The position numbers and the translations under genes were made by a program. From NCBI GenBank assembly GCA_021795795.1, contig JAJYPA010000007.1, positions 1 through 60,820 on the forward strand: a stretch of 60,820 nucleotides of DNA, written 5' to 3'. Positions 7,710 to 39,245 of the stretch are shown piece by piece; positions within the stretch are counted from its first letter, which is position 1, and the number at the start of each line of letters is the position of its first letter. This DNA comes from Pseudomonadota bacterium (lineage in GTDB: Bacteria > Pseudomonadota > Gammaproteobacteria > Halothiobacillales > Halothiobacillaceae). The notes under the pieces are model-generated. The model made no database searches. It saw only the letters and a list, made by a program, of their open reading frames with translations, and was not told where the DNA came from.

Positions 7710-7732
7710 TGCTAAAGGTCTAATCGTACAGG

Positions 7733-9100: not shown

Positions 9101-9112
9101 GATTACCCTATC

Positions 9113-23217: not shown

Positions 23218-23242
23218 GTCGTCTACCTTCTTGAATATCATC

Positions 23243-23252
23243 TGGTATACAA
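23243..23252. promoter_or_regulatory. candidate GntR (FCD) operator
   Basis: TGGTATACAA (TTGTATACCA on the minus strand) has a perfect GTATAC core and closely resembles TTGTATACAA-type sites bound by FCD-family GntR proteins. It overlaps the predicted transcription start (about 23247) of the sigma-54-like promoter, a position suited to repression by the GntR protein encoded in the same operon. No second copy was seen in the cluster. Confidence 0.45.
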
Positions 23253-23257
23253 GACAT

Positions 23258-23273
23258 AGCGACAACGATGCCA
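23258..23273 (-). promoter_or_regulatory. weak sigma-54-like promoter of the urea operon
   Basis: TGGCAT-N5-TCGCT keeps the invariant GG and GC at the correct 10-bp spacing, with two departures from TGGCAC-N5-TTGCW. It lies 41 bp upstream of the allophanate hydrolase start, and nitrogen control of this operon would be natural. It is clearly weaker than the two matches between nirB and nrtA. Confidence 0.4.
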
Positions 23274-23457
23274 ACTACACAAATCCATTTATAATCAACT
23301 GGATAATGTATTGTTAGGCAATGAGAAACTATTGGTTTTGCACTCTTGTGAGGCAAAATTCTTAGCGGGACGAATAAATTTGGTGCGTCTGTGGCTGTAG
23401 AAGTTTTCGAGTAAATCAATGGCGCTGATTACACGATGCACATTACGTTTTGACAGC

Positions 23458-24391: not shown

Positions 24392-25225
24392 TTACAGTTG
24401 CAGTTCCCGGTAGGGAGCTGTTTTGTAGTGAGTGACAAACATCATCAGTCCCACGAAAAACAAGCCACCGACCAGATTGCCCAGCGCCGTCGGCAATTCG
24501 TTCCAGAGCAGGTAGTCAACAAAGGTGAAATCGCCGCCCATGATCAGCGCGAAGGGGAACAGGAACATGTTGACGACCGAGTGTTCGAAACCCATATAGA
24601 AGAACAGCATGATCGGCATCCACATCGCCCAGATCTTGCCGATGGCCGACGTGGAGAGCATGGCGGCGGCGACACCGGTTGCCACCATCCAGTTGCACAA
24701 AATGCCGCGGATGAAAATGGTGAACCAGCCCATGATGCCGTGCGATTCATAACCCAGCGTTCGTGCCATGCCGATATGCCCGACTTTCTCCGCGATCACG
24801 CCGCCGCCTGTCGTATAGCCGAAGGTGAGAACAAAAGAAATCATGAAGGCCACGGTCACAGCACCGACAAAGTTACCGATAAACACGAGTCCCCAGTTTC
24901 GCAGCACCTGCTTCACGGTGACACCCGGGCGTTTGTCCAGCAACGCGAGCGGCACCAGCATGAAAACGCCGGTCAGAAGATCGAAGCCCAGCAGGTACAG
25001 CAGAATGAATCCGACCGGGAAAAGTACAGCACCCATCAACGGTGAGCCCGTTTGAATGCCCACGGTAATGGCGAATGCCGCGGCGAGGGCCAGAATGGCA
25101 CCGGCCATGTAGGCCCGAATCAGCGTGTCTCGAGTTGAAAGCAGGACTTTGGACTCCCCTGCATCGACCATCATTTTTGCCAGGTCTTTTGGCTTGACGT
25201 AATCGGTTGTCATATGTTCTGACAT
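24392..25225 (-). CDS. formate/nitrite transporter (FNT) family protein
   Basis: A pentameric channel of the FocA/NirC family, 277 aa with six spans. Family motifs include the N-terminal AGAILALAAAFAITVG, GFDLLTGVFMLVPLALLDKR, the NWGLVFIGNFVGAV segment and the GFEHSVVNMFLFP motif with the central pore histidine. An AGAGGAA site precedes the ATG. Located between cysG and the HemD-like gene in the nitrite-assimilation block, nitrite (NirC-type) is the likely substrate; uptake or export cannot be separated by sequence. Confidence 0.87.
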   Translation of the reverse strand: MSEHMTTDYVKPKDLAKMMVDAGESKVLLSTRDTLIRAYMAGAILALAAAFAITVGIQTGSPLMGAVLFPVGFILLYLLGFDLLTGVFMLVPLALLDKRPGVTVKQVLRNWGLVFIGNFVGAVTVAFMISFVLTFGYTTGGGVIAEKVGHIGMARTLGYESHGIMGWFTIFIRGILCNWMVATGVAAAMLSTSAIGKIWAMWMPIMLFFYMGFEHSVVNMFLFPFALIMGGDFTFVDYLLWNELPTALGNLVGGLFFVGLMMFVTHYKTAPYRELQL

Positions 25226-25335: not shown

Positions 25336-26790
25336 TCATGCCGCAGCCTGTATGCGTTGGGTGGATGCACGATTGACGTCTGGCCCCGGCAGGAAGCTCG
25401 GATCGGCTTCGGCAGAGCCTTCAAACCACGACAACGTGTCATGCAGACGCACAACCTCGCCGACGATCAACAGCGAAGGCGATTGCGCTCCGGCAATTCG
25501 GTCGGCCAGCGTCGCAATCGTTCCGGTATAAACCTTTTGGCGTGCCGTGGTGCCGTGTTCGACCAGTGCAGCGGGGTAATCTGCGGGCAGGCCATGGGCT
25601 TGTAATTGGCTGCAAATTTCAGCAGTGGCAGTCAGCCCCATGTAAAAAACCAGCGTCTCTCGGCCATGCGCAAGATGCGCCCAATCCAGACTGAGTTGGC
25701 CGTCCTTGGTGTGCCCAGTGATGAAACGTACGGACTGCGCATAATCGCGATGCGTGAGCGGAATCCCGGCATACGAGGCGCACCCGCTAGCGGCGGTAAT
25801 GCCTGGCACAACTTCGTACGGAATGCCCGCCGCGGCCAGTGTCTGAATTTCTTCACCGCCACGTCCGAAAATAAAGGGGTCACCACCCTTGAGCCGCGCC
25901 ACGATTTTGCCTTGCTGCGCCAACTCGACCAGCAATTGCGAGATCTGCTCCTGCGGCACGCTGTGCGTATCGCGGCATTTACCGACATAACGGCGATCCG
26001 CATCCCGGCGCGCCAGCTCGACAATGGCGGGTGCCACCAGCCGGTCATAAATAACCACATCGGCTTCCTGCAGGCGCTGCAACGCGCGAAATGTCATCAA
26101 ATCCGGCTCGCCCGGGCCGGCGCCAATCAGATACACCCGGCCTTGCGTCGGCGTCGCGGCGTCTTTTTGCAGCGTTTGTTCGAATAAGCGATCGGCTTCG
26201 TCGGTTTTGCCCCTTGCCAGCGTGCTCGGTAACAAGCCAGTCAGGATTTTTTCCCAGAACAACCGACGATCACCCACCTGGGGTAACGCCGCTTGCACGG
26301 CGGCACGGCGCACACCCATAAATGCTGCGAGTTTGCCAATGCTGTGCGGCAGGAGCGTTTCGATTTTTGCGCGAATCCAACGCGCCAACACCGGGCTTTT
26401 GCCCGCGCTTGAAACGGCCACGGTGATCGGGTCGCGATCGATGATGGCCGGCACGATGAAACTGCACAGTTCGGGGCTATCGACCACATTCACCGGAATA
26501 TGTCGCGCTTGTGCGGCGGCGGCCACGGCCGCATTGACGGCCTCGTCGTCGGTGGCAGAAATCACCAGACCACAGCCATCGAGATGTTGGGGTTCAAAGG
26601 TTGACTGGATGTAGGAAATGCACGAACCGTCGATGAGCGCACGAATTTCCTCACTGCACTGCGGCGATACGACGCGAACGGTCGCACCGGCCGACTTCAA
26701 CAGGGCGAGCTTGCGAGCGGCCACTTCACCAGCACCCACGAGCAGGCAGGTTTGCTGCTGAACATCGAGAAAAATCGGCAAGTAACGCAT
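25336..26790 (-). CDS. cysG: siroheme synthase CysG (bifunctional/trifunctional)
   Basis: Makes siroheme from uroporphyrinogen III for NirB (and sulfite reductases). About 484 aa: an N-terminal dehydrogenase/ferrochelatase domain (residues 1-210; nucleotide motif LLVGAGEVAARK near 17-28, SATDDEAVN) and a C-terminal SAM-dependent methyltransferase (VYLIGAGPGEPDLMTFRALQ, KGGDPFIFGRGGEE, PGITAASGCASYAGIPLTHR). ATG 26790 follows a GAGG site inside the end of nasA, 4 bp after its stop; this also matches the standard MRYLPIFLD start. It is the fourth gene of nirB-nirD-nasA-cysG. Confidence 0.95.
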   Translation of the reverse strand: MRYLPIFLDVQQQTCLLVGAGEVAARKLALLKSAGATVRVVSPQCSEEIRALIDGSCISYIQSTFEPQHLDGCGLVISATDDEAVNAAVAAAAQARHIPVNVVDSPELCSFIVPAIIDRDPITVAVSSAGKSPVLARWIRAKIETLLPHSIGKLAAFMGVRRAAVQAALPQVGDRRLFWEKILTGLLPSTLARGKTDEADRLFEQTLQKDAATPTQGRVYLIGAGPGEPDLMTFRALQRLQEADVVIYDRLVAPAIVELARRDADRRYVGKCRDTHSVPQEQISQLLVELAQQGKIVARLKGGDPFIFGRGGEEIQTLAAAGIPYEVVPGITAASGCASYAGIPLTHRDYAQSVRFITGHTKDGQLSLDWAHLAHGRETLVFYMGLTATAEICSQLQAHGLPADYPAALVEHGTTARQKVYTGTIATLADRIAGAQSPSLLIVGEVVRLHDTLSWFEGSAEADPSFLPGPDVNRASTQRIQAAA

Positions 26791-26794
26791 GATC

Positions 26795-29554
26795 TCAGTC
26801 CTCAATAGACGCCTTGGCTGGGGTTGTCGCCGCTTCAGCGGATGGCGGGTTCTGGGCAATCAAGGCCTTGAGTTCCGGCAGGCAGGAACCGCAGTTGGTG
26901 CCCGCTTGGGTACACGCGCCCAAGGCTTTGGCATCGGTGATGCCGTGTTCTTGAATCGCGGCGATCAATGGGTTGCGCCCCAGGCTGAAGCACGCACAAA
27001 TGATCGGCCCGACATCGGCCTGCGCACCGGCGGGTTTGCCAGCCATTAAATCGGCCCGTTGTGCAGCATTGAGCGAGGGTTCCGCAAACAGGCCGAGCAA
27101 CCAGTGGGTATCGACCGCACGGCTATCACGGGTGATGTGCAGCACCCAATCGAGCCGCCCTTGCGTGATCTGCGCGATGCGATAACGCCCGGTGGCCGAA
27201 TCGGCAAATTCAATCCATTCGCGGTCGATTTCTGCGGCGGTTTCAAGGGCGAATTTTTGTTGATTAAGCGTGGTTTTTGCCCAGTCCATCCAGTCGTGGG
27301 GTGAGGCCACTCCGGCCAACTCGATGCGCATTGCAGCGGTTGCTGTGATCTTGACGGCGTAGTCACCAGGCAGTTCTTGGAGCTCGGGTACGGGCAGGCC
27401 CTCACGAATCAAGGCGAAGCCAAACCATTCTGCGGGATAGTGCTCGACCCGGACGGATTGGGTTTTAAATTCCGGCTGCCCGGAGACTGGATCAATTATT
27501 GGTGCGATCAGTGCGTTGACCAGACCGTTTCGGCTAAACGCATCACTCCAATGCATGGGCACGAACACACTGCCTTGGCGTTGATGCTCGTCCAGCACCA
27601 CCCGGGTCAACAATTGCCCGAGTGTATTGCCAACCCGCGCGATTTGATGCCCCCGCAGTTTGAAGCGCGCCGCGTCCATCGGGTGAATCGTGAGGGTTGG
27701 CTCGCCGACATGGTTGAGCAGCTTGGGCACGGCACCGGTCCGACTCATGCCATGCCATTGATCGCGCAGACGACCGGTGTTCAAACGCAGGGGATACAGC
27801 GGCGTCAGTGCCGATGGTGCTCCTTGTGCCGTGATGGGCAGCATTCGGGCGCGTCGGTTTTCCGTAAAAAAACGGCCATCGCTGAACGGTTCAACTGGTG
27901 GCCGGTCGGCTGGTTGTGGCCAGCGGGTCGGGGGCAGCTCGTTATATTGCTCATCGGTGAGTTGGTTAAAGGCACCGAGATCCAGATCACGGCTGCCGTT
28001 GTTTTCAAACGCCGTGAGCGCGGCATATTCGCGGAAAATCGCCGCGGCATCGGCGAAATCGAAGGCGGTGCCAAAACCGAGTCGTTGTGCCACGGCGCAT
28101 AACGCCTGCCAGTCATGGCGGGATTCGCCGACTGGCGGATACAGCGGACGCTGCCGAGAAATTCGACGCTCGGAGTTGGTCACCGTGCCATCACGCTCAC
28201 CCCAAGTGGTGGCGGGCAACAAGATGTCGGCGTACTGAGCGGTATCGGTATCGGCCACGCATTCAGACAGCACAACCAACGGGCAGTGTTCAAGCGCCGT
28301 GCGCACGGCATGGCTATCGGGCAGGCTGAACACGGGATTGGTCGCGATAATCCACAGCGCTTTGATTTGGCCTTTTCCTGCGGCGGCGAATAAATCCACG
28401 GCCTTCAAACCGGGTTTTTGCGCGACATTTTGGCTGCCCCAAAACCGGCTGACGCGGTCGATCGCCTCTGGCGTAAACCCCTGATGTGCCGCGAGCATAT
28501 TGGCCAACCCGCCGACTTCACGTCCACCCATCGCATTGGGTTGTCCGGTGATGGAAAACGGCCCCATCGCCGGTTTGCCAACGCGCCCTGTGGCTAGATG
28601 GCAGTTGATCAGGGCATTGCCCTTATCCGAGCCGCTGGCCGACTGGTTCAAGCCCTGAGACCAGAGCGACACCGTACGTTCATGAGCGATAAACCAGGCG
28701 AAGAACTGCTCCAATTTCGCCTGCGAGAGTCCACAGCGTTGTGCCAGAATCTCTAGATCTGCGGCGTCGGCGCGGGCGGCGGCCAGGCTGGCATCAAAGC
28801 CATCGACCGACGCTGCGATAAACTCATGATCGATTTTACCGGCTTCGGCCAGCGCAACCAGCAGGCCGTTAAACAGCAGAGCATCGGCACCGGGCGCAAT
28901 CGGCAGATGCAGGTCGGCAATGTCGCAGGTAGCTGTTTTGCGCGGATCAATCACCACGAATTTCATCTCTGGACGGCGTTCTTTCGCCGCCACCAAGCGT
29001 TGGAAAGTCACCGGGTGGGCGTAGGCGGTATTCGAGCCCACCAGTACAACTAAATCGGCGTTTTCCAAGTCTTCGTAGGACACCGGTACGGTGTCGCTGC
29101 CGAAGGCGCGGTTGTAAGCTGCCACGGCCGAGGACATACACAGACGCGAGTTGGTATCGATATTCGCGCTGCCGATAAAGCCTTTCATCAACTTGTTGGC
29201 AACATAATAATCTTCAGTCAGGATCTGCCCGGAGACATAAATCCCGACCGAATCCGGGCCGAATTCGTCAATGGCTGCTCGAAATCCTTCGGCGATCTGA
29301 TCCAGCGCGTGATCCCAGGAAATGCGCTGCAAGCCGCCGTCGGCCGTACGCTGCAGAGGTGTCATTAGGCGATTGGGCAAGTTGATGGTTTCCGCCAACG
29401 CGGCACCTTTGGAGCAAAGCCGCCCAAAGTTGGCAGGATGATCGCTATCGCCACGCACCGACCATGCGCCTGCCGTATTTTGTTCGGCCAGCACGCCGCA
29501 GCCCACGCCGCAGTAGGGACAAGTGGTTTTGATGGTGACTGAAGGGGGTTTCAT
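26795..29554 (-). CDS. nasA: assimilatory nitrate reductase catalytic subunit NasA
   Basis: A cytoplasmic molybdenum bis-MGD enzyme that reduces nitrate to nitrite. About 919 aa: N-terminal [4Fe-4S] site C12, C15, C19 in TCPYCGVGC plus RLCSKGA; the molybdopterin domains; a dinucleotide-binding segment near residue 600; and an extra C-terminal BFD-like [2Fe-2S] domain (IICACFSLGRNPL ... CTQAGTNCGSCLPELKAL), as in Klebsiella NasA. ATG 29554 lies 4 bp after the nirD stop. No NasC/NasB-type NADH reductase subunit is present in this cluster, so the electron donor is unknown, perhaps ferredoxin or an unlinked reductase. Confidence 0.94.
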   Translation of the reverse strand: MKPPSVTIKTTCPYCGVGCGVLAEQNTAGAWSVRGDSDHPANFGRLCSKGAALAETINLPNRLMTPLQRTADGGLQRISWDHALDQIAEGFRAAIDEFGPDSVGIYVSGQILTEDYYVANKLMKGFIGSANIDTNSRLCMSSAVAAYNRAFGSDTVPVSYEDLENADLVVLVGSNTAYAHPVTFQRLVAAKERRPEMKFVVIDPRKTATCDIADLHLPIAPGADALLFNGLLVALAEAGKIDHEFIAASVDGFDASLAAARADAADLEILAQRCGLSQAKLEQFFAWFIAHERTVSLWSQGLNQSASGSDKGNALINCHLATGRVGKPAMGPFSITGQPNAMGGREVGGLANMLAAHQGFTPEAIDRVSRFWGSQNVAQKPGLKAVDLFAAAGKGQIKALWIIATNPVFSLPDSHAVRTALEHCPLVVLSECVADTDTAQYADILLPATTWGERDGTVTNSERRISRQRPLYPPVGESRHDWQALCAVAQRLGFGTAFDFADAAAIFREYAALTAFENNGSRDLDLGAFNQLTDEQYNELPPTRWPQPADRPPVEPFSDGRFFTENRRARMLPITAQGAPSALTPLYPLRLNTGRLRDQWHGMSRTGAVPKLLNHVGEPTLTIHPMDAARFKLRGHQIARVGNTLGQLLTRVVLDEHQRQGSVFVPMHWSDAFSRNGLVNALIAPIIDPVSGQPEFKTQSVRVEHYPAEWFGFALIREGLPVPELQELPGDYAVKITATAAMRIELAGVASPHDWMDWAKTTLNQQKFALETAAEIDREWIEFADSATGRYRIAQITQGRLDWVLHITRDSRAVDTHWLLGLFAEPSLNAAQRADLMAGKPAGAQADVGPIICACFSLGRNPLIAAIQEHGITDAKALGACTQAGTNCGSCLPELKALIAQNPPSAEAATTPAKASIED

Positions 29555-29558
29555 TGAT

Positions 29559-29906
29559 TCAGGCCGTCGCCGCGCGCGCCATTGCATCGAGGTGCTGCAC
29601 CTCGATTTCGATCACGCCGTCGGTCACCCGCACCGGATAGCTGGGTGTGCAACCTTCATCCGGCGCCATGGCCGTACCTTTATCCAGTTCAATCACCCAG
29701 CCGTGCAACGGGCAGCTGACTTTGTGATCATGCACGATGCCTTGTGACAGTGGTCCTCGCTTGTGCGGGCAATGATCCTCCAGCGCGAACACTTCGTCGC
29801 TTTGTGTACGGAAAATCGCGACGGGTGTGCCATACAAACGCACGACTTTTGCGCCAAGACGGGGAATGTCGACCAATGGGCCAACGGTGAACCAGGTACT
29901 TTTCAT
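29559..29906 (-). CDS. nirD: nitrite reductase small subunit NirD (Rieske type)
   Basis: The small partner of NirB, 115 aa with a Rieske fold. Unlike E. coli NirD, which lacks cluster ligands, this one keeps both: C46-P-H48 and C65-P-L-H68, so a [2Fe-2S] centre is expected. ATG 29906 follows GAGG by 9 bases; an upstream GTG in frame is less likely. It is 26 bp after nirB and 4 bp before nasA. Confidence 0.92.
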   Translation of the reverse strand: MKSTWFTVGPLVDIPRLGAKVVRLYGTPVAIFRTQSDEVFALEDHCPHKRGPLSQGIVHDHKVSCPLHGWVIELDKGTAMAPDEGCTPSYPVRVTDGVIEIEVQHLDAMARAATA

Positions 29907-29932
29907 GTTGTCTGTCCTCACGCTTTTTCTCC

Positions 29933-32371
29933 TCAGGCCAAAACCAGTGGCTCGGCAAATTCGTGGGCGTCTTTGCCTTCGGCGCGCTCAACCCAAGGGT
30001 CAAATTGCGAAAACTGCTGCGAAAAAATAAACCGTTCGGCCAGTTCTTTGCGTCCGGCCGGATCTTCGATCAATCGGCGCTGGATGTAGGGCAGCCCGAC
30101 GCGCTCAATCCACGGCGCAGTGCGATCGAGGTAATGCGCTTCTTCGCGGTACATCTGGATGAAGGCTTGGGTGTATTCGACCACTTCATCTTCGGTTGAT
30201 ACCTTGCAGAGAAAATCAGTCACGCGCACCTTGATGCCCGCATTGCCGCCGACATGCAGCTCGAAACCTGAATCCACACAGACCACACCGAGGTCTTTCA
30301 CCGTGGCTTCGGCGCAATTGCGGGGGCAGCCGGAGACGGCAATCTTGAATTTATGTGGCATCCAGGAACCCCAGGTGAGTTTTTCCAGGCGGATGCCCAG
30401 CGCGGTGGAATCCTGCGTGCCAAACCGGCACCATTCCTTGCCGACACAGGTTTTGACCGTCCGAAGCGCCTTGCCATAACCATGACCGGAAACAAAACCG
30501 GCGGCACTCAAGTCGCGCCAGACATGGGGCAGTTGCTCTTTTTTCACGCCCAACAAATCCAACCGTTGCCCGCCGGTGAATTTCACCGTTGGGATCGCGT
30601 AGCGCTCGGCCACTTCGGCAATGGCTTTGAGTTCAGACGGTGAGGTCACGCCACCCCAGATACGAGGAATTACCGAATAGGTGCCGTCTTTTTGGATGTT
30701 GGCGTGGACCCGTTCGTTGATGAAGCGCGATTGCGCATCATCCTGATAGCTGTCCGGCCAGGCGCACAGCAGGTAGTAATTCAGCGCCGGTCGGCACTTG
30801 GCGCAGCCGTCTTCGGTTTTCCAGGAAAATTGGTCGAATACCGCGCGAATGGTCTTGAGTTCGTGGCGGATGATGCCTACGCGAACTTCGTCGTGCGTGG
30901 CGTCGGTGCAACCGCACAGGGGTTTGACCGAGGGCGCGGCGGAGTAATCGCCACCCAGGGTCGAGGCCAATAAATCTTCGACCAAGCCCGTGCAGGAACC
31001 ACAGGATGCCGACGCCTTGGTGTGGGCGCGTACTTCATCGAGCGTGAACAGCTTTTGCTCCTTGATGGCTTTGACGATATCGCCTTTGCACACGCCGTTA
31101 CAGCCGCAAATTTCGGCAGCATCGGGCAAGTTGGCAACACGCGCTTTCGCGCCATGACCCGAATCACCCACATGTGCTTGGCCGAACAACAGGTGATCGC
31201 GCAACGCGGTCACATCGGTTTTATCGCGCATGAGTTGGAAGTACCAGGCGCCGTCCATGGTGTCGCCGACCATCACAGCACCCTCAACCATGTTATTGTT
31301 GAGAATAAGTTTTTTGTACACCCCTCGGGCCGCATCGGCCAACACCATTTCTTCGTGATGCGGCTTGGCTTGAATTTCCCCGGCGGAAAACACGTCCACG
31401 CCGGTGACCTTGAGTTTGGTCGAGGTCATTGAGCCGGTGTACTTGGCAATGCCGTATTCGGCCAGATGATTCGCGCAGACCTTGGCCTGCTCGAATAGGG
31501 GCGCGACCAAGCCGTAGGTACTCTTGCGGTGCTGTACGCATTCGCCGACTGCGTAGATCTTCGGATCGTAGGTTTGCAGCGTGTCGTCAACGACGATCCC
31601 ATTTTCACAATAAATGCGGCTGTTGAGCGCCACATCGATATTCGGGCGAATCCCGGCGGCCATGACCACGAGATCAGCGGGCAGTTCGGTGCCGTCTTTG
31701 AGCCGGACGGATTCGACCCGATCCGTGCCGTGTAGCGAGGCGGTATGCGCATTCAGGCGAATGCTGATACCGCGGTCTTCCAGGGTTTTTTCCAGAATAC
31801 GACCGGCGGCGCCATCGAGCTGGCGATCCATCACATTGCCGTTGCGGTGCAGCACGGTAACAATCATGCCGTGGGAAACCAGCCCCGCGGCGGCTTCCAA
31901 GCCGAGCAGACCGCCGCCAATCACCACAGCATGACCACCATCGCGGCACACAGCCAGCATGGCGTCTACATCGGCAATGCTGCGGAAACCCACCACGCCC
32001 GGCAGATCAGCACCGGGTAAGGGCGGGATAAATGCACGCGAGCCGGTGGATATCAATACGCGATCGTAGGGAAATGCCCGTCCATCCTGAGTGATGACCT
32101 CTCGCTTCGTTCGCTCGATTCGTTCCACCCTCACGCCCTTGTATAGGGTGATGCCGTTCTCGGCATACCAGTTCTCGTCGTTGAGAATAATGTCCGGGAT
32201 GGTCTGCTCCTTGGCCAGCACCGGCGAGAGCATGATACGGTTGTAATTGGGGTAGGGCTCGTCACCGAATACCGTGATGTCGTACAGGTCGGGTTTGAGT
32301 TTCAGTAACTCTTCGACGGTACGCATTCCGGCCATGCCGTTTCCAATCACAATCAGGCGAGGGCGAATCAT
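29933..32371 (-). CDS. nirB: assimilatory nitrite reductase large subunit NirB
   Basis: Reduces nitrite to ammonium with NAD(P)H in the cytosol. About 812 aa in order: FAD/NAD(P)-binding domains (RLIVIGNGMAGMRTVEELL; GGLLGLEAAAGLVSHG near 150), BFD-like [2Fe-2S] domain (CGCNGVCKGDIVKAI; CGSCTGLVEDLL), then siroheme/[4Fe-4S] sulfite-reductase-type repeats with CVGKEWCRFG and CPRNCAEATVKDLG supplying the four cluster cysteines. ATG 32371 is used because GGAG lies 9 bases upstream within the alternative TTG-started frame. First gene of the operon, preceded by a sigma-54 promoter and an attenuator leader. Confidence 0.95.
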   Translation of the reverse strand: MIRPRLIVIGNGMAGMRTVEELLKLKPDLYDITVFGDEPYPNYNRIMLSPVLAKEQTIPDIILNDENWYAENGITLYKGVRVERIERTKREVITQDGRAFPYDRVLISTGSRAFIPPLPGADLPGVVGFRSIADVDAMLAVCRDGGHAVVIGGGLLGLEAAAGLVSHGMIVTVLHRNGNVMDRQLDGAAGRILEKTLEDRGISIRLNAHTASLHGTDRVESVRLKDGTELPADLVVMAAGIRPNIDVALNSRIYCENGIVVDDTLQTYDPKIYAVGECVQHRKSTYGLVAPLFEQAKVCANHLAEYGIAKYTGSMTSTKLKVTGVDVFSAGEIQAKPHHEEMVLADAARGVYKKLILNNNMVEGAVMVGDTMDGAWYFQLMRDKTDVTALRDHLLFGQAHVGDSGHGAKARVANLPDAAEICGCNGVCKGDIVKAIKEQKLFTLDEVRAHTKASASCGSCTGLVEDLLASTLGGDYSAAPSVKPLCGCTDATHDEVRVGIIRHELKTIRAVFDQFSWKTEDGCAKCRPALNYYLLCAWPDSYQDDAQSRFINERVHANIQKDGTYSVIPRIWGGVTSPSELKAIAEVAERYAIPTVKFTGGQRLDLLGVKKEQLPHVWRDLSAAGFVSGHGYGKALRTVKTCVGKEWCRFGTQDSTALGIRLEKLTWGSWMPHKFKIAVSGCPRNCAEATVKDLGVVCVDSGFELHVGGNAGIKVRVTDFLCKVSTEDEVVEYTQAFIQMYREEAHYLDRTAPWIERVGLPYIQRRLIEDPAGRKELAERFIFSQQFSQFDPWVERAEGKDAHEFAEPLVLA

Positions 32372-32388
32372 TTTTTTCTGCTCCAATT

Positions 32389-32453
32389 AAAAAGGCATCT
32401 TTCTCGCCGCAAACGAATTGAACCGTTCTGGGCAGGAAAGACGCCTTTGTCTT
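32389..32453 (-). promoter_or_regulatory. nirB leader: hexaloop hairpin overlapping an intrinsic terminator (ANTAR-type attenuator)
   Basis: In the minus-strand leader, AAGAC (32453-32449), loop AAAGGC (32448-32443) and GTCTT (32442-32438) form a 5-bp hairpin with a six-base loop having A at position 1 and G at 4, the signature of RNA bound by ANTAR antiterminators. The same bases AAAGGCGTCTTTC (32448-32436) also pair with GAAAGATGCCTTT (32403-32391; 13 bp with one G-U), followed by five T, forming a terminator. The two folds exclude each other. A first, upstream hexaloop hairpin is weak (GTC-ATAAAC-GAC, 32478-32467). Confidence 0.7.
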
Positions 32454-32493
32454 AATTAAATTGTCTGTCGTTTATGACTTTGTCTGTTAAATA

Positions 32494-32509
32494 AGCAAGC
32501 CTTGTGCCA
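32494..32509 (-). promoter_or_regulatory. sigma-54 promoter of nirB-nirD-nasA-cysG
   Basis: TGGCACAAGGCTTGCT on the minus strand is a full match to TGGCAC-N5-TTGCW. The predicted start, about 32483, lies just before the attenuator hairpins, leaving a leader of about 112 nt ahead of nirB. Confidence 0.85.
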
Positions 32510-32560
32510 TTTTATGATTTGTTATTTATCAACAATTTATATAAATCTAGGTAGGTTTTT

Positions 32561-32577
32561 TGCACCAAAAAAAAGCA
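32561..32577. promoter_or_regulatory. imperfect NtrC-like enhancer site (nirB side)
   Basis: TGCACC-N5-AAAGCA has a perfect left half and a degenerate right half of the NtrC consensus TGCACC-N5-GGTGCA. Its centre is about 86 bp upstream of the predicted nirB start, a normal distance for an activator of sigma-54 polymerase. Confidence 0.4.
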
Positions 32578-32692
32578 AACGCGAGAAAAAATGGTTCACG
32601 CGAGGGCAGCCGAGACACGGGCGCGCGGTTCTCATGGGCCGGATTGAACGCAGCTTGAATTGCTTTATGAAAAGGCATTTCGGACGGCCGGT

Positions 32693-32709
32693 TGTGCTTA
32701 GATGGTGCA
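32693..32709. promoter_or_regulatory. imperfect NtrC-like enhancer site (nrtA side)
   Basis: TGTGCT-N5-GGTGCA has a perfect right half and a degenerate left half of the NtrC consensus. Its centre lies about 98 bp upstream of the predicted nrtA start. With the site at 32561-32577 it makes a roughly symmetric control region. Confidence 0.4.
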
Positions 32710-32772
32710 ATTACCACCACGTGAAAGAGGGCCAACTGCGATAACTATTTGAAATTTTAAGTTTAAATATTA

Positions 32773-32788
32773 TGGCACACCCCTTGCT
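32773..32788 (+). promoter_or_regulatory. sigma-54 promoter of nrtABC-nasR
   Basis: TGGCACACCCCTTGCT is a full match to TGGCAC-N5-TTGCW. The predicted start near 32799 puts the first leader hairpin at about +10. It faces away from the nirB promoter, 263 bp apart. Confidence 0.87.
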
Positions 32789-32807
32789 TATAAATAATCA
32801 CAAGCCC

Positions 32808-32880
32808 GGTAGCGAAGAAGTTACCAAGGCGCAAGAGCAACGGCGCTCGCAGAATCGGATTTCTGTGAGCGTTTTTTTTT
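32808..32880 (+). promoter_or_regulatory. nrtA leader: two hexaloop hairpins and terminator (ANTAR-type attenuator)
   Basis: Hairpin 1: GGTAGC (32808-32813), loop GAAGAA, GTTACC (32820-32825), with G at loop position 4 but not A at 1. Hairpin 2: GAGC (32835-32838), loop AACGGC with A1 and G4, GCTC (32845-32848), extended by two pairs past an AA bulge. Its 3' side is also the 5' arm of a terminator: CGCTCGCAGAA (32844-32854) with TTCTGTGAGCG (32861-32871; 11 bp, one G-U) and then nine T. Hairpin 2 and the terminator exclude each other, the known logic of nasF-type leaders read by NasR. Confidence 0.8.
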
Positions 32881-32912
32881 GTCCATCGGTAACCATTTAT
32901 GAGGACTATACG

Positions 32913-34373
32913 ATGAACTTAGATCGATTGAATGACGCACACGACGTTTCCCCCACAGCAGACCGCCCGCACACGGGACGACGACGATTTATGGCCTCTG
33001 CCGTGGCCTTGGCCGTTGGTGCCGTTCTCGGCCGCAGCGCATTTTCTCAGGCACTGGCGGCGGATGCAGTCGGGCCGGCAGAAAAACCGCAGTTGACACT
33101 AGGTTTCATCAAATTGACCGACATGGCACCTTTGGCTATTGCCTATGAAAAAGGGTTTTTCCAGGATGAGGGCCTGTTTGTTTCACTTCAGGCTCAGGCT
33201 AACTGGAAGGTGTTGCTCGATGGTGTGATTGGCGGCACCCTTGATGGGTCACACATGTTGGCGGGGCAGCCGCTTGCCGCGACGATCGGATTTGGTTCCA
33301 AGGCGCACCTGGTCACGCCGTTTTCCATGGATTTGAATGGCAATGCCATCACGGTTTCGAATTCCGTCTGGCAGCAGATGCTGCCGAATTTGCCCAAGAT
33401 GACCGATGGCAAGCCGGTTCATCCGATCAGCGCGTCGTACCTCAAACCCATCGTTGAGGATTATCAAAAAGAGGGCAAGCCCTTCAAAATGGGCATGGTG
33501 TTCCCTGTTTCCACGCACAACTACTACTTGCGTTACTGGCTAGCGGCGGGCGGGCTTAACCCAGGATTCTATGATCCGGCGCATGGGGATACCAATGGGC
33601 AGATCGATGCGGATGTGCTGTTGTCCGTCACGCCGCCACCGCAAATGCCATCTACCCTGCAAGCCGGCACCATCGATGGTTACTGCGTAGGCGAGCCGTG
33701 GAACGAACAGGCCATTATGAAGGGCATCGGTGTGCCAATCGTCACCGATCTGGAAATCTGGAAAAATAATCCGGAAAAAGTGTTTGGTTTGACGGATGAA
33801 TTCACTAAAAAATATCCGAACACCACCATTCGTCTGGTTAAGGCGCTGATTCGCGCCGGGCACTGGCTGGATGAAAACAACAATGCGAATCGCAAGGAAG
33901 CCGTCAAGATCCTTGCAAAATCCCAGTATGTGGGTGCGGATGAGGCCGTAATCGCCAAGTCCATGACAGGTACCTTTGAGTTTGATAAAGGGGATGTACG
34001 TCCCGTTCCGGATTTCAATGTGTTCTTCCGAGACAACGCGACATACCCGTATTATTCGGATGCCATCTGGTTCTTAACCCAAATGCGGCGCTGGGGGCAG
34101 ATCGGTGAGGAGAAGCCGGATGATTGGTATCTCAACACTGCCAAATCGGTCTACAAGCCGGATATTTACCAAAAAGCCGCGCTGGCGTTGATCGCTGAAG
34201 GCAAATTCAAGCCGTCACAATTCCCAGATTTCGCCACGGAAACCGGGTTCAAGCCCATCACGAACACCTTCATCGACAAGATCACGTATGACGCCCACAA
34301 GCCGAATGACTATCTGACGAAATTCAAAATTGGCCTTAAGGGTAATGAGATGCCCAAGGTCGGTGGCGCATGA
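32913..34373 (+). CDS. nrtA: nitrate ABC transporter substrate-binding protein NrtA
   Basis: The periplasmic nitrate-binding component, 486 aa. A Tat signal ([19 protein letters not shown], about residues 23-41) precedes the mature domain, with family landmarks [55 protein letters not shown] and [17 protein letters not shown] at 32901-32905 fixes the ATG at 32913; an upstream in-frame extension would read through the leader terminator and is rejected. First gene of nrtABC-nasR; its stop overlaps nrtB by ATGA. Confidence 0.94.
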
Positions 34374-35344
34374 GCACTAGGAAAGTAATGGGGAAATTCA
34401 CAATGGACAGCGCATTGTTTCGCAAGCTGGCTAAAGCAATTGGCTTGCCCTTCGTGGGCATTGCCGTATTTCTTGTGCTCTGGGCGTTGGTGGCCGATCA
34501 CATTCACACGGCATTGGGCACCTTCCCTGGGCCGACGGCGGTCGCACAGCAAACAGAGAATCTGTATCAGGATTTCGAGCAGGCCCAGACCAAGAAGGCC
34601 CAGTTCTACCAGATGCAGGAGGAACGCAACGCCAAGCTGCTGGCCGAAAACCCGAACTACAAGGCGGTCATCTACCCATATACCGGGCAACCGACCTTCG
34701 TCAGCCAGATCGGCACGAGTTTGGTGACGGTGCTCTCGGGGTTCATCCTGGCCTCCCTGATTGCGATCCCGTTGGGGATTGCCATTGGGCTGTCCGCCGG
34801 GCTGCATGCGGCGGTGAATCCGATCATCCAGATTTTACGTCCGGTATCGCCACTCGCTTGGTTGCCGCTGGTGACAATCGTGGTCAGTGCGATGTATGTC
34901 AGCAATGACCCAATGTTCTCCAAATCCTATCTGGTGTCGATGATCACGGTGCTGCTCTGTTGCCTGTGGCCGACCATCATCAACACCGCCGTCGGCGTGG
35001 CGGCCATCTCACAAGACCTGACCAATGTGTCGCGCGTGTTGCGCCTGAACTGGTGGACGCATGTACGCAAGATCGTAGTGCCTTCGGCGTTACCGATGAT
35101 GTTCACCGGCCTGCGCCTGTCTTTGAGCATCGCGTGGATGGTGTTGATTGCCGCGGAAATGTTGGCGCAGAACCCCGGGCTGGGCAAGTTCGTCTGGGAT
35201 GAATTCCAGAACGGTTCTTCCGATTCGCTGAGCCGGATCATGGTGGCGGTGATTGTGATCGGCCTGATCGGCTTCATGCTCGATCGCACCATGTTGCTGC
35301 TGCAACGCTGGATTTCCTGGGATAAGAAATCGGTTTTACGCTGA
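34370..35344 (+). CDS. nrtB: nitrate ABC transporter permease NrtB
   Basis: The membrane permease, 324 aa, with a TM near residues 20-45, a charged periplasm-facing stretch of about 60 residues, and five more spans. The cytoplasmic EAA-type loop is [38 protein letters not shown]. The long insert between TM1 and TM2 is typical of NrtB/NasE. The ATG overlaps the nrtA stop; a second ATG at 34388 is possible. Confidence 0.93.
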
Positions 35345-35373
35345 TTGATCTTTGTTTAAAAAAGGGTTTTGTG

Positions 35374-36171
35374 ATGAATCAAACGGCATACCTAGAAATC
35401 AGTCAGGTTTCGATTGAGTTTCCAACGCCAAAGGGCTCATTTTTGGCACTAAATGAAGTGGATCTGAAAATTGCGCAAGGCGAATTTGTCTCGCTAATCG
35501 GTCACTCCGGCTGCGGCAAATCCACCGTGCTCAATATTGTGGCGGGCCTGTATCAAGCCACACACGGTGGCGTCATACTCGAAGGACGTGAAGTTACCGA
35601 GCCGGGTCCTGAGCGCGCCGTGGTGTTCCAGAACCACTCGCTGCTGCCCTGGCTGACGGCCTATGAAAATGTCGAGTTGGCTGTAAAGCAGGTGTTTAAA
35701 GGCAAGAAATCCAAATCACAAATGCGCGAATGGATTGAGCACAACCTCAAGCTGGTGCACATGGATCACGCCATGCATAAACGGCCGGATGAAATCTCCG
35801 GCGGCATGAAACAGCGGGTCGGCATCGCCCGGGCGCTGGCCATGCAGCCGAAGGTGATGTTGATGGATGAACCGTTCGGTGCGCTGGATGCGCTTACCCG
35901 CGCCCACTTGCAGGATTCCTTGATGGAAATTCAGGCCGATCTGCAAAACACCGTCATCATGATCACGCACGATGTCGACGAGGCGGTATTGCTCTCGGAT
36001 CGCATTGTGATGATGACTAATGGTCCGGCGGCGACCGTGGGCGAAATTCTGACGATCGATTTACCCCGCCCCCGTGACCGGTTAATCTTGGCGGACAACC
36101 CCACCTATAACCATTATCGCCATGAAGTACTCAAGTTTCTGTATGAAAAGCAAAGGAAGGTCGCTCATTGA
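35374..36171 (+). CDS. nrtC: nitrate ABC transporter ATP-binding protein NrtC/NasD
   Basis: The ATPase of the importer, 265 aa. Walker A GHSGCGKST near residues 41-49, Q-loop VVFQNHSLLPWLT, signature ISGGMKQRV, Walker B VMLMDEPFGALDALTR, H-loop MITHDVDEA. It is a single-domain NasD/NrtD-length protein, not the fused NrtC with an extra binding domain. The ATG follows AAGGG. Confidence 0.94.
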   Translation: MNQTAYLEISQVSIEFPTPKGSFLALNEVDLKIAQGEFVSLIGHSGCGKSTVLNIVAGLYQATHGGVILEGREVTEPGPERAVVFQNHSLLPWLTAYENVELAVKQVFKGKKSKSQMREWIEHNLKLVHMDHAMHKRPDEISGGMKQRVGIARALAMQPKVMLMDEPFGALDALTRAHLQDSLMEIQADLQNTVIMITHDVDEAVLLSDRIVMMTNGPAATVGEILTIDLPRPRDRLILADNPTYNHYRHEVLKFLYEKQRKVAH

Positions 36172-36246
36172 CGATCGAGTGGCGGTGTCTCATTTGTTTG
36201 TCTTGAAATCCAATGTGTGTCGTTCAGTTTGTGGGAAGGTGAACGC

Positions 36247-37497
36247 ATGACGTCCGCCTTCGATTTCATGCTCGCCGCGCGGCAGGGTGAGCTGCAAGCG
36301 TTACAAAATCTCGCCATCACCAGTGAGCTGGTAAGCGCGGTGAGTCGTGCCATCCACGCGCTGCAAAAGGAACGGGGTTTTACCAATCTGTATCTGGGTG
36401 GTTTCAGCCAGAAGTTTGCAAAAGAACTCAAGCAATTCTCCCAAAGCAGTGAAGATGCCGCTTTGGTATTGCGGGGTTGTTTTGATAGGATGAATCTGGA
36501 TTCCGGCTGTCATGCCGATAGAATCCGTCTGCTCAATCGGGTGGCCCTGGCGGTTTACTTGCTCGACGATTTGCCGCGTCTGCGCCATAAGGTGCATGAC
36601 CGTCTATTGACGGCAGCCGCTTCCATGCAGTCATTTACCTATCTCATAAGCGCATTGTTGGCAGTCGTATTCGAAGCGGCGGATACGGCAGTCGATCCGC
36701 AAATTACCAGTGCACTCGTCGCCCTGTTCAACTTCATGCAGACGAAGGAACTCGCCGGACAAGAGCGTGCCACCGGTGTTGTCGGCTTCGTTGAGGGGTA
36801 TTTCGAACCGAGGCTTCTGAACAGGATGCACTTTTTGCAAGAAGGGCAGGGACGCTGTCTGGATGTATTTGCCGAATTTGTCGCCCCTGAATGTCTGGAC
36901 GAATGGTTAAAACGTGAGCAGTCCGACATCACGGTTCAGATCGCTCAACTTCGCCGAATTGCCGAACGCACGAAGCCTGATGCGCGAGTCGGTAGCGAGA
37001 TGGCGGAAATATGGTTCGATGTGGCTTCACAACGCATGGATATGATGAAGACCATGGAGGATGAGCTATCCGAGCGACTCGTTAAACTCTGTGCCGAAAA
37101 GATCAAATTAGCCCAAAGCGACCTTGAGGATCACGGCGCACTGCTCAAGCGACTAGCGTTGTTAGATGAACCGTCGGAGTTCCCAACGGCACGGCTGTTC
37201 AATGTTCAGGCTGTTGAATTGGGGAGTTCGCCTGCAGATACGCCGGGAAGTCAGCTGAGCCGCTCGATTCTTGACCTGCTGCATGCCCAGACGCTTAGGC
37301 TGCAAGCCATGAATGACGAGATCGAGTTCGCGCGTCAAGCCCTGAGTGAGCGCAAGACCATCGAACGCGCCAAAGGCGAACTGATGGCGAAACAAAAGCT
37401 GAGTGAAGAGGACGCCTATCGTCTGATGCAGCAACGAGCCATGGAACGAGGCGCCAAACTGACCGATATTGCTCGCTTCATTTTGGAAAACGCATAA
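36247..37497 (+). CDS. nasR: NIT-ANTAR nitrate/nitrite-responsive antiterminator NasR
   Basis: An RNA-binding antiterminator, 416 aa. The all-helical NIT sensor fills about residues 20-290 (VSRAIHALQKERGFTNLYLGG is its first conserved helix, and the signal-binding arginines follow), and a C-terminal ANTAR domain spans the last 60 (IERAKGELMAKQKLSEEDAY, QQRAMERGAKLTDIARFIL). In Klebsiella NasR, nitrate or nitrite frees the ANTAR domain to bind hexaloop hairpins and stop termination. Both leaders in the window (nirB, nrtA) carry such hairpins. ATG 36247 follows GGAAGG. It lies 75 bp after nrtC and may be read in the same transcript, giving autoregulation. Confidence 0.93.
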   Translation: MTSAFDFMLAARQGELQALQNLAITSELVSAVSRAIHALQKERGFTNLYLGGFSQKFAKELKQFSQSSEDAALVLRGCFDRMNLDSGCHADRIRLLNRVALAVYLLDDLPRLRHKVHDRLLTAAASMQSFTYLISALLAVVFEAADTAVDPQITSALVALFNFMQTKELAGQERATGVVGFVEGYFEPRLLNRMHFLQEGQGRCLDVFAEFVAPECLDEWLKREQSDITVQIAQLRRIAERTKPDARVGSEMAEIWFDVASQRMDMMKTMEDELSERLVKLCAEKIKLAQSDLEDHGALLKRLALLDEPSEFPTARLFNVQAVELGSSPADTPGSQLSRSILDLLHAQTLRLQAMNDEIEFARQALSERKTIERAKGELMAKQKLSEEDAYRLMQQRAMERGAKLTDIARFILENA

Positions 37498-37784
37498 AAG
37501 GGTGCGCATTTTGCAACTTCATCTCAATCGAGTTGAAAATCAATCTCATCAAGCCATGAAATACCGGCATAGACATATTGCAATATTAATAAGTAGTAAT
37601 GCGCCTATACTTGCCTAAAGTAACAGTCGCCTGATTGTTGCTTAAATTCAAACAGCGCAAAGCGCGGGCCGCTCAAGGTCGTCAAGGAAAAGCCAGAACA
37701 TGGAACAGCCTTAGGGTTTGATCCAGCTTCTTCATGTAGCACTTATAAGTTACTGTTTTTTTGACAGATCTGGGAGGTTATTTG
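37498..37784. other. intergenic region nasR-ccoN
   Basis: A 287-bp gap. It holds a perfect palindrome ATATTGCAATAT (37575-37586), a TATACT (37606-37611) without a clear -35, and, close to ccoN, a weak hairpin (GTA...TAC around ACTTATAAGT, 37736-37753) with seven T at 37756-37762 that might be a nasR terminator or a ccoN leader element. No clear FNR box or sigma-54 match was found. Confidence 0.35.
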
Positions 37785-39245
37785 ATGAACACATCATCCG
37801 CAACCATGCCCAGTGGCGCATTCTACGACTATGACATCGTCAAGATGTTCACGATTGCCTCAATGGTATGGGCATTGGTCGGAATGGCCGCTGGAATCTA
37901 TATCGCCGCCGAGCTGGCCTGGCCCGCGCTGAATCTCGGTGTGCCGGAAATCACCTTCGGCCGATTGCGGCCGGTACACACCAATACGGTGATCTGGGGG
38001 TTCGGCGGGAATGCGCTGATCGCCACATCGTTCTATATCGTGCAGCGAACATGTCAGGCGCGTTTATGGGGCGGAAAATACCTGCTCAACACGATGTTCT
38101 GGGCCTGGCAGGCCGTGGTGCTCGTTGGGGCATGGGCCCTGATGGCGGGGCATAGCCAGAGTCGTGAATATGCCGAATATCCCCTGGTGGACAACATTTT
38201 GATGATGATCGGTCTGATCATTTATGCGCTGATCTATGCTAACACCCTGCGCCGCCGTTCCCAGCCTCACATTTACGTGGCCAACTGGTTCTTTATGGCA
38301 TTCATTCTCGCCACGGCTATCCTGCACTTCTTCAACAATTTGCAGGTGCCTTATTCGGTCTGGCAGTCCTATTCCGTCTTTAGCGGTACGCAGGATGCGA
38401 TGACCGAATGGTGGTACGGCCACAATATTGTCGGCTTTGTGCTGACCGTCGGCTTCCTCGGCATGATGTACTACTTCGTGCCCAAGCAGGCCGGACGCCC
38501 CATCTTCTCTTATCGACTCTCCATCGTGCATTTCTGGGCATTGTCGTTTCTGTATATGTGGGTTGGCGGTCACCATCTGGAATGGACCGCATTGCCCGGC
38601 TGGATCAATTCATTATCGGTCACCTTCTCGATCCTTTTGCTGCTGCCATCATGGGGCGGGATGATCAACGGCATCATGACCTTGTCTGGTGCCTGGGAGA
38701 AACTGCGAACCGATCCGATTATCCTGTTTCTGGTTACGGCGCTGGCCTTCTACGGCATGGCCACATTCGAGGGGCCGATGCTCGCCCTGCAATCGGTCAA
38801 TGCACTCTCGCATTACACCGACTGGACGATCGGCCATGTGCACTCCGGCGCCCTGGGTTGGGTGGCAATGATCACCTTCGGTTCGTTCTATCACATGGTT
38901 CCTCGCCTGTGGGGAACCCGCCTGTATTCCACGCGTCTGGTGTTTGTGCATTTCTGGCTTGCCACCATCGGGATCGTGCTGTATGTCGTCTCCATGTGGG
39001 TCTCCGGCATCGGGCAGGGTTTGATGCTGCGCGCCTTCGATCAGTACGGCAATCTGGCCTATACCTTTGTTGAAACGGTCGCGTTCCTGCATATTCCCTA
39101 CATCGTTCGTTTCATCGGTGGCGCATTCTTCTTGAGTGGCACCATTCTGATGGTCTACAACCTGTATAAAACCATTGTGTCAGAACGCATATCTGAAGTA
39201 GAACGTGAAGTGATGATACCGGGACGTCTTGCGTCATCGCATTGA
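37785..39245 (+). CDS. ccoN: cytochrome c oxidase cbb3-type subunit I, orphan CcoN
   Basis: The heme-copper core subunit of a C-family oxidase, 486 aa with 12 spans. It shows the family motifs RPVHTNTVIWGFGGNAL, TEWWYGHNIVGFVLTVGFLG (CuB and cross-link region), WVGGHHLEWTALP, and DWTIGHVHSGALGW with the heme-ligand histidines. GGGAGG at 37771-37776 sets the ATG 37785. No ccoO, ccoP or ccoQ follows: a terminator and uvrD come next. It must either pair with CcoOP encoded elsewhere or be unused. Pseudomonas aeruginosa uses orphan CcoN isoforms this way. Confidence 0.93.
   Translation: MNTSSATMPSGAFYDYDIVKMFTIASMVWALVGMAAGIYIAAELAWPALNLGVPEITFGRLRPVHTNTVIWGFGGNALIATSFYIVQRTCQARLWGGKYLLNTMFWAWQAVVLVGAWALMAGHSQSREYAEYPLVDNILMMIGLIIYALIYANTLRRRSQPHIYVANWFFMAFILATAILHFFNNLQVPYSVWQSYSVFSGTQDAMTEWWYGHNIVGFVLTVGFLGMMYYFVPKQAGRPIFSYRLSIVHFWALSFLYMWVGGHHLEWTALPGWINSLSVTFSILLLLPSWGGMINGIMTLSGAWEKLRTDPIILFLVTALAFYGMATFEGPMLALQSVNALSHYTDWTIGHVHSGALGWVAMITFGSFYHMVPRLWGTRLYSTRLVFVHFWLATIGIVLYVVSMWVSGIGQGLMLRAFDQYGNLAYTFVETVAFLHIPYIVRFIGGAFFLSGTILMVYNLYKTIVSERISEVEREVMIPGRLASSH

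Follow-up and report, generated by a model that had tools for sequence, protein, structure and literature searches.

A divergent nitrate-assimilation locus in a Halothiobacillus relative with paired sigma-54-like promoters and variant ANTAR-type leaders

Two-step control in described systems

Control of nas or nirBD operons by sigma-54 and NtrC together with an ANTAR-responsive leader is established. In the nasFEDCBA system of K. oxytoca, as published, a NIT-ANTAR regulator (NasR) combines Ntr control with nitrate-responsive antitermination in the leader (PMC5424462, PMC7496416, PMC3369936): the nas genes also answer to the Ntr system (PMC5424462), and in the presence of nitrate NasR lifts nasF terminator readthrough from 5% to 52% (PMC7496416). 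The nasF leader is described as requiring A1 and G4 in the loop of its P1 hairpin (PMC3369936); SELEX with NasR selected the same A1/G4 code in two hairpins, and the values reported for P2 alone (about 12 uM) and for P1P2 (about 1 uM) make the single hairpin about 12-fold weaker (PMC7496416). For Pseudomonas nirBD and its leader NalA the description is of a sigma-54/NtrC-dependent start followed by ANTAR antitermination, the sensor there being the NasS-NasT pair (PMC12830290). In Bradyrhizobium diazoefficiens one ANTAR protein, NasT, has several putative leader targets at separate loci, with direct action described as shown for nos and predicted for the others (PMC6759348).

The locus reported here, which lies in the window (the whole stretch of 60,820 nucleotides that was analysed), shares features with each of these. 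As in B. diazoefficiens, one ANTAR protein appears to face several leaders; as in Pseudomonas, a putative sigma-54/NtrC-dependent start precedes an ANTAR-type leader, but the sensor is NasR. As in K. oxytoca the regulator is of the NIT-ANTAR type, but where K. oxytoca is described with one controlled operon, here there are two divergent ones, with nasR apparently inside one of them. The K. oxytoca nasF leader, compared through its published description, carries A1/G4 in both loops, whereas the P1 loops of the window are non-canonical. Among the matches listed from the open literature, no title or abstract start concerned the control of nitrate assimilation in Halothiobacillus or a divergent pair of ANTAR leaders.

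The locus and its intergenic region

The window comes from a sulfur-oxidising relative of Halothiobacillus: the encoded NasR shares 93% identity with its counterpart in Halothiobacillus sp. MAG STB_50 and 77% with the one in Halothiobacillus sp. 15-55-196. The nearest genome among those compared is G001. The two gene series diverge from an intergenic gap of 541 bp between the nirB ATG (32371, minus strand) and the nrtA ATG (32913, plus strand), and their members were identified from Pfam domains:

24395..25225, minus strand: formate/nitrite transporter, a possible extra member of the left operon (G002 has the same order)
25339..26859, minus strand: cysG, siroheme synthase
26798..29587, minus strand: nasA, assimilatory nitrate reductase
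29562..29921, minus strand: nirD, Rieske-type small subunit
29936..32371, minus strand: nirB, nitrite reductase large subunit, at the head of the left operon
32913..34370, plus strand: nrtA, nitrate-binding protein, NMT1-like
34370..35341, plus strand: nrtB, ABC permease
35371..36168, plus strand: nrtC/D, ABC ATPase
36247..37494, plus strand: nasR, NIT nitrate-sensor domain and ANTAR RNA-binding domain

On the left, hemD (also by Pfam domains) lies downstream in the leftward series, after nirB-nirD-nasA-cysG; beyond it an allophanate hydrolase (21397-23274, minus strand) shares the strand of the nirB operon. On the right, nasR is the fourth gene in the series headed by nrtA, on the side to which a sequence-only reading of this DNA had assigned it. 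The gap between nrtC and nasR is 75 bp, and a scan for sigma-70-like sites only found none around nasR (35800-37700). The mechanically called nrtA start at 32772 was rejected, as it falls inside the promoter. After nasR come a COX1-family oxidase subunit (37785-39242), which we take to be probably cbb3 CcoN-like, and a UvrD/Rep helicase; no partner subunit for the oxidase was noticed among the adjoining ORFs.

The intergenic region holds the following candidate elements for transcription initiation:

32494..32509, minus strand: sigma-54 promoter core, left, before nirB, TGGCACAAGGCTTGCT; exact TGGCAC-N5-TTGC at 32495-32509
32773..32788, plus strand: sigma-54 promoter core, right, before nrtA, TGGCACACCCCTTGCT; exact TGGCAC-N5-TTGC at 32773-32787
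32561..32577, minus strand: NtrC-like half-site, left, TGCTTTTTTTTGGTGCA; 9/12 to TGCACC-N5-GGTGCA
32693..32709, plus strand: NtrC-like half-site, right, TGTGCTTAGATGGTGCA; 9/12 to TGCACC-N5-GGTGCA
32527..32539, plus strand: weak IHF-like site, between the left NtrC-like site and the left promoter

The sequence-only reading had proposed a perfect TGGCAC-N5-TTGC promoter on each side. Both motifs are exact, and they are the only perfect sites of the window: with a final A/T added to the core, 11 positions are scored, and both strands together hold just these two at 11/11, one site at 10/11 and 28 at 9/11. The two lie 264 bp apart on opposite strands, facing apart; the scan for sigma-70-like promoters found none in 32300-33000. 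The left core is kept with 0-1 changes in G001, G002 and G010, the right core in G001 and G002, with a weaker match (9/11) in G010. Exact matches that include the final A/T number three in G002 (two being this pair), three in G001 (one here) and two in G010 (none here, each of its two nas sites deviating from the exact pattern). Since a reversed control pattern is about as frequent (2, 3 and 3 matches in G001, G002 and G010), the sigma-54 pattern is not enriched genome-wide and stands at background level in these three genomes, and sites with one mismatch show no excess in the window (5 found vs 7 expected). The case for sigma-54 is built on two perfect, neighbouring sites, their orientation and their conservation. 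Transcription from sigma-54 promoters usually starts about 12 nt past the GC element; by this rule the predicted starts lie near 32484 (left) and 32798 (right), giving predicted leaders of about 112 nt to the nirB ATG and 115 nt to the nrtA ATG.

Against the NtrC dyad TGCACC-N5-GGTGCA both NtrC-like sites have a perfect promoter-proximal half, and they score 9/12 in all four species with the pair, save the right site of G002 at 10/12. Their centres lie about 85-100 bp from the predicted starts, which agrees with the distance first given for them. Perfect TGGTGCA halves recur at near-constant spacing in all four species with the pair: in the window, G001, G002 and G010 the left half-site begins 68, 70, 70 and 68 bp upstream of its sigma-54 site, and the right one 80, 80, 80 and 79 bp. 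In G004, which has the left side only, an NtrC-like site of 8/12 is found at 69 bp. That spacing should be so nearly constant even though the intergenic region of G010 is just 56% identical to that of the window argues for function. A search allowing one mismatch found no NtrC palindrome at the locus in G001 or G010, and P-II gene promoters, taken as an NtrC reference for the genus, showed no clear sigma-54/NtrC pair. NtrC is the putative activator at both candidate half-sites. The match to the IHF consensus is perfect in the window, G001 and G002 and absent in G010; the same consensus has 9 perfect matches across the whole window.

Downstream of each predicted start lie two hairpins and an intrinsic terminator:

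32467..32478, minus strand: P1-like hairpin, left leader, GUC[AUAAAC]GAC; 3 bp stem, A1 present, A at position 4 in place of G
32438..32453, minus strand: P2 ANTAR hairpin, left leader, AAGAC[AAAGGC]GUCUU; identical in the nirB leaders of G001, G002, G010 and G004
32389..32448, minus strand: intrinsic terminator, left leader, overlapping the loop and 3' arm of P2; segment z -5.6
32808..32825, plus strand: P1-like hairpin, right leader, GGUAGC[GAAGAA]GUUACC; 6 bp stem, G1 in place of A, G4 present
32835..32848, plus strand: P2 ANTAR hairpin, right leader, GAGC[AACGGC]GCUC
32842..32880, plus strand: intrinsic terminator with T tract, right leader, overlapping P2

Rfam families, applied at their gathering thresholds, had no match in the window, so the leaders were examined with a scan written for the purpose and compared with shuffled sequence. 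Both P2 hexaloops (AAAGGC and AACGGC) carry A1 and G4 and are closed by a C:G pair, and in both leaders the 3' arm of P2 is also the 5' arm of the terminator, so that P2 and terminator are mutually exclusive. The scan for this overlap returned exactly two matches in the window, one per strand and both in this region; when the region was put through 1000 dinucleotide shuffles, 10 of these gave a match at all and none gave one on both strands. The folds have z-scores of -5.5 (right) and -6.3 (left), with 0/200 shuffles equally stable. Conservation extends to the P2 hexaloop, to the C:G pair that closes it and to the mutually exclusive overlap; the NasT-type relatives have matching P2 loops.

Covariation was assessed in an alignment of 11 right-type leaders (10 distinct) of 12, G022 being omitted as a near copy of G025. 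In the terminator helix 94% of cells are paired; 12 cells are changed on both sides (shuffled mean 3.6) and the covariation score is 0.34 against 0.18 when shuffled, each value being matched in 0/500 shuffles. Less clear are the 4 pairs changed on both sides (vs 2.1; reached by 32/500 shuffles) and the 7 further pair types (vs 7.4; reached by 405/500). P2 of the right-type leaders hardly varies and shows no covariation, and covariation in the left-type terminator was not above shuffles (148/500 as high).

P1 hairpins, NasR and the distribution of the paired layout

Upstream of P2 a C:G-closed hexaloop hairpin is present in both lowest-energy folds, with A1 and G4 together in neither – a point unmentioned in the sequence-only reading. 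As the P1 hexaloops lack this combination, we class the leaders as a variant that would work like the ANTAR family and not as full members of it. The condition is shared by close relatives: a canonical P1 occurs in one of the 10 leaders of the genus NasR clade (window, G001, G002, G010 and G004; the exception is the right leader of G010) and in 6/6 leaders of the same-genus NasT-type members G005, G007 and G008 (Fisher test, p = 0.0009, which ignores relatedness). Elsewhere it is found in 6/9 other NasR leaders, in 38/46 leaders of the other-ANTAR set once P1 and P2 are correctly assigned (a count that includes L115, L116, L128 and L158, where the scan took P1 for P2) and at 175/3000 random positions. 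The leader of G046 (L035) is scored as a miss, the scan having chosen the second hairpin; an AACGGC loop exists further upstream. One compensatory change in the right P1 stem, A-U to G-C in G001 and G002, suggests that the hairpin may persist while its loop changed; the 3 bp left stem breaks in G002.

The NasR of the window has NIT fused to ANTAR and aligns with K. oxytoca NasR (4akk) across both domains. In EutV, according to the published account, Arg168 bonds a ribose of the RNA, and two more residues, Arg175 and Arg177, likewise touch the backbone (PMC8934654). An alignment with EutV (6wsh) places Gln, Gly and Lys of the window NasR at these three positions, which were assigned by matching their spacing to the residues named in that paper. 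Gln at 168 is found in 5/5 clade NasR proteins vs 3/86 other ANTAR rows; the genus also has a more distant NasR, that of G009, with Arg at this position. The three rows outside the genus are L146 (G146), L112 (G147) and L075 (G373), of which L146 has a canonical P1. A rule equating Gln at 168 with loss of P1 was rejected: L146 combines Gln with a canonical P1, while G297 and G080 have Arg without one. Structure 1s8n, presumably Rv1626, also has Gln there, which tells against a simple link. The NasR of G004 reads LKG where those of the window and K. oxytoca show LRR.

Partner factors were counted in relatives of the window's organism. RpoN is encoded in 6/6 genus genomes searched; NtrC-family matches occur in 6/6, above the family cut-off in 4/6, those of G002 and G004 being truncated where the contigs end; and each of the 6/6 encodes exactly one ANTAR protein, which is NasR in G001, G002, G004 and G010 and NasT-like in G007 and G008. 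With a single ANTAR protein per relative, that protein, in the window NasR, is most likely the one to which both leaders respond. Across 10 genus genomes a NasR-length match was found in five (G001, G002, G004, G009, G010), an ANTAR-only match in three (G005, G007, G008) and none in two (G003, G006).

We surveyed 369 genomes of the class, 44 of which matched the NasR profile at 1e-20. The 17 NasR loci comprise 11 covering NIT and ANTAR, those of G002, G004, G010, G012 and G016, and the window; the set omits G009, truncated where its contig ends, and the partial G085. For comparison we used 72 other-ANTAR loci (12 + 60) from 112 genomes with matches, mostly the stronger ones. To count as a leader, a candidate needed either a canonical P1 or at least 9/11 for its sigma-54 site. 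By this measure leaders are present at 14/17 NasR loci (20 leaders) and 56/72 other-ANTAR loci (63 leaders); when a sigma-54 site is required, the figures are 14/18 and 40/72. Shuffled loci of both sets gave 0 leaders, and the counts indicate that the combination of sigma-54 and ANTAR leader is common. The scan, which may miss true leaders, found none in G389, G373 and G266; a relaxed scan gave a candidate with a 3-bp P2 stem in G373. At 8393-9627 of G046 (L035) a NasR-like gene lies in two frames, a NIT part and an ANTAR part, owing to a sequencing error or a split gene.

Head-to-head leaders within 1.2 kb are much rarer: 5/17 NasR loci (window, G001, G002, G010, G297) vs 0/72 of the others. 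Four of the five belong to one genus, in which G001, G002 and G010 keep both halves of the layout – the recurrence for which the sequence-only reading had proposed to search. The fifth, G297 (L076), is from another family of the class, with leaders at 2550 (minus) and 3010 (plus), one preceding a nirB-like operon and the other a nasA-cysG operon; its right promoter scores 8/11 and its right P2 loop is ACAGGG. Clusters with two leaders in other orders occur in G004, G005, G007, G008, L043, L113, L117 and L136. Two-leader clusters as such are not unique, and the G297 head-to-head pair lies outside the genus. The same-genus NasT-type clusters (G005, G007, G008) resemble the window in having two sigma-54/ANTAR leaders with a near-identical nirB-side P2; unlike the window's, their leaders are not head-to-head within 1.2 kb – those of G007 diverge, but 4.5 kb apart with genes between – and nasT lies outside both leadered units.

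The position of nasR varies too. It is downstream of a leader in the four Halothiobacillus head-to-head loci, upstream of one in G016, G012, G046, G362, G154, G249, G134 and G080, and outside the paired units in G004 and G297. In G004 (L031; 3250, 6614, 6965-8209) the nirB operon is accompanied by a separate unit, which encodes an MFS transporter and a PP2C-kinase protein behind an ANTAR leader of its own; nrtABC had no match on that contig. In a midpoint-rooted NirB tree the NasR members (G001 not in the tree) form one group (100/100) beside the NasT-type members of the family, a placement that fits a regulator swap; the forks that nest this group among the NasT-type members have 93/95 and 91/99, below the support mark. 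By RpoN, G004 falls beside G008, and the cluster may therefore have been transferred. The less ordinary features of the window are thus the close head-to-head pairing, a nasR gene behind the leader that it should control, and the altered P1 hairpins.

Proposed control and its alternatives

We consider it likely that the locus is a divergent nitrate-assimilation hub under sigma-54/NtrC and NasR antitermination, AND-like in its logic and with nasR amplifying itself; dual control of both operons is the most economical reading of the sequence. Under nitrogen limitation, sigma-54 polymerase would transcribe in both directions, its activator at the mirrored half-sites probably being NtrC. Each transcript would halt at its leader terminator unless NasR with nitrate or nitrite stabilised P2, which would then exclude the terminator. 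Nitrogen hunger and nitrate would both be required for nirB-nirD-nasA-cysG and for nrtABC-nasR, two serial inputs per operon making control AND-like. With nasR placed behind the right leader, and with no sigma-70-like promoter of its own found, NasR would be expected to boost its own production: occasional readthrough would furnish the first NasR, and nitrate would then amplify it. It is the gene order that suggests co-transcription of nasR, autoregulation and AND logic.

This scheme is in essence that of the sequence-only reading, of which a good part stands: the sigma-54-like promoters are conserved, the leaders have the P2/terminator arrangement, and 6/6 of the genus genomes searched encode RpoN, proteins of the NtrC family and just one ANTAR protein. 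It needs qualifying in that the P1 loops lack A1 and G4 together and the NtrC sites are half-sites.

One question is whether the pairing has any logic of its own. Two ordinary sigma-54/ANTAR nas operons could stand back to back by chance, with only NasR in common: the parts would be the same and no special logic would attach to them. This explanation, which overlaps the main one, has a real chance of being correct, if somewhat short of even, given how common ANTAR leaders are in both sets of loci – also when a sigma-54 site is demanded – and given the two-leader clusters that are otherwise arranged in eight further loci. It sits less easily with the rarity of close head-to-head pairs, absent from all 72 other-ANTAR loci, and with the retention of the pairing in four genomes with matching half-site spacing, the one genus that supplies four of the five pairs being borne in mind.

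The two inputs themselves can be questioned. Should something other than NtrC activate the sigma-54 promoters, general nitrogen limitation would not be the first input. Candidates are plentiful, as the NtrC model has 28-50 matches in each of six genomes (many of them receiver-only, a good number with an activator domain), and the locus offers half-sites, with no perfect NtrC palindrome in G001 or G010; but the perfect TGGTGCA halves at near-constant spacing in 4/4 species with the pair, and the action of NtrC on nas and nirBD genes described for studied systems (PMC5424462, PMC12830290), make such an activator unlikely. It is less probable still that the leader terminators are constitutive attenuators, with NasR inactive on one or both. 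That idea draws on the A1/G4 code, missing from P1 in 9/10 clade leaders and described as essential in K. oxytoca nasF (PMC3369936); against it stand the conserved P2 hexaloop, closing pair and exclusive overlap, with loops like those of NasT-type relatives.

If sigma-54/NtrC and NasR do act jointly on both operons, the altered P1 hairpins invite a further conjecture. A two-leader NasS-NasT regulon may have been rewired to NasR, with an altered recognition code (P1 loops without A1 or G4, and in NasR Gln for EutV Arg168 and Gly for Arg175), P2 and terminator kept, and nasR moved behind its own leader, giving a weak-affinity, autoamplified switch in which NasR acts mainly on P2. We hold this to be rather doubtful as a whole. 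Given the 12-fold weaker binding of K. oxytoca NasR to P2 alone, more NasR would be required where P1 is poor; speculatively, this fits an autoamplified threshold. Were the rewiring true, the leaders would open only after nitrate had raised NasR, with a threshold or hysteresis affecting both operons at once.

On the main reading the locus would be a compact natural circuit: two promoters answer to one common pair of signals, and the sensor is made from one of the two. The contrast within a single genus – NasT with a canonical P1 as against NasR with an altered one – makes the need of an ANTAR dimer for two A1/G4 hairpins testable, the alternative being that protein and RNA drift together when the regulator is swapped.
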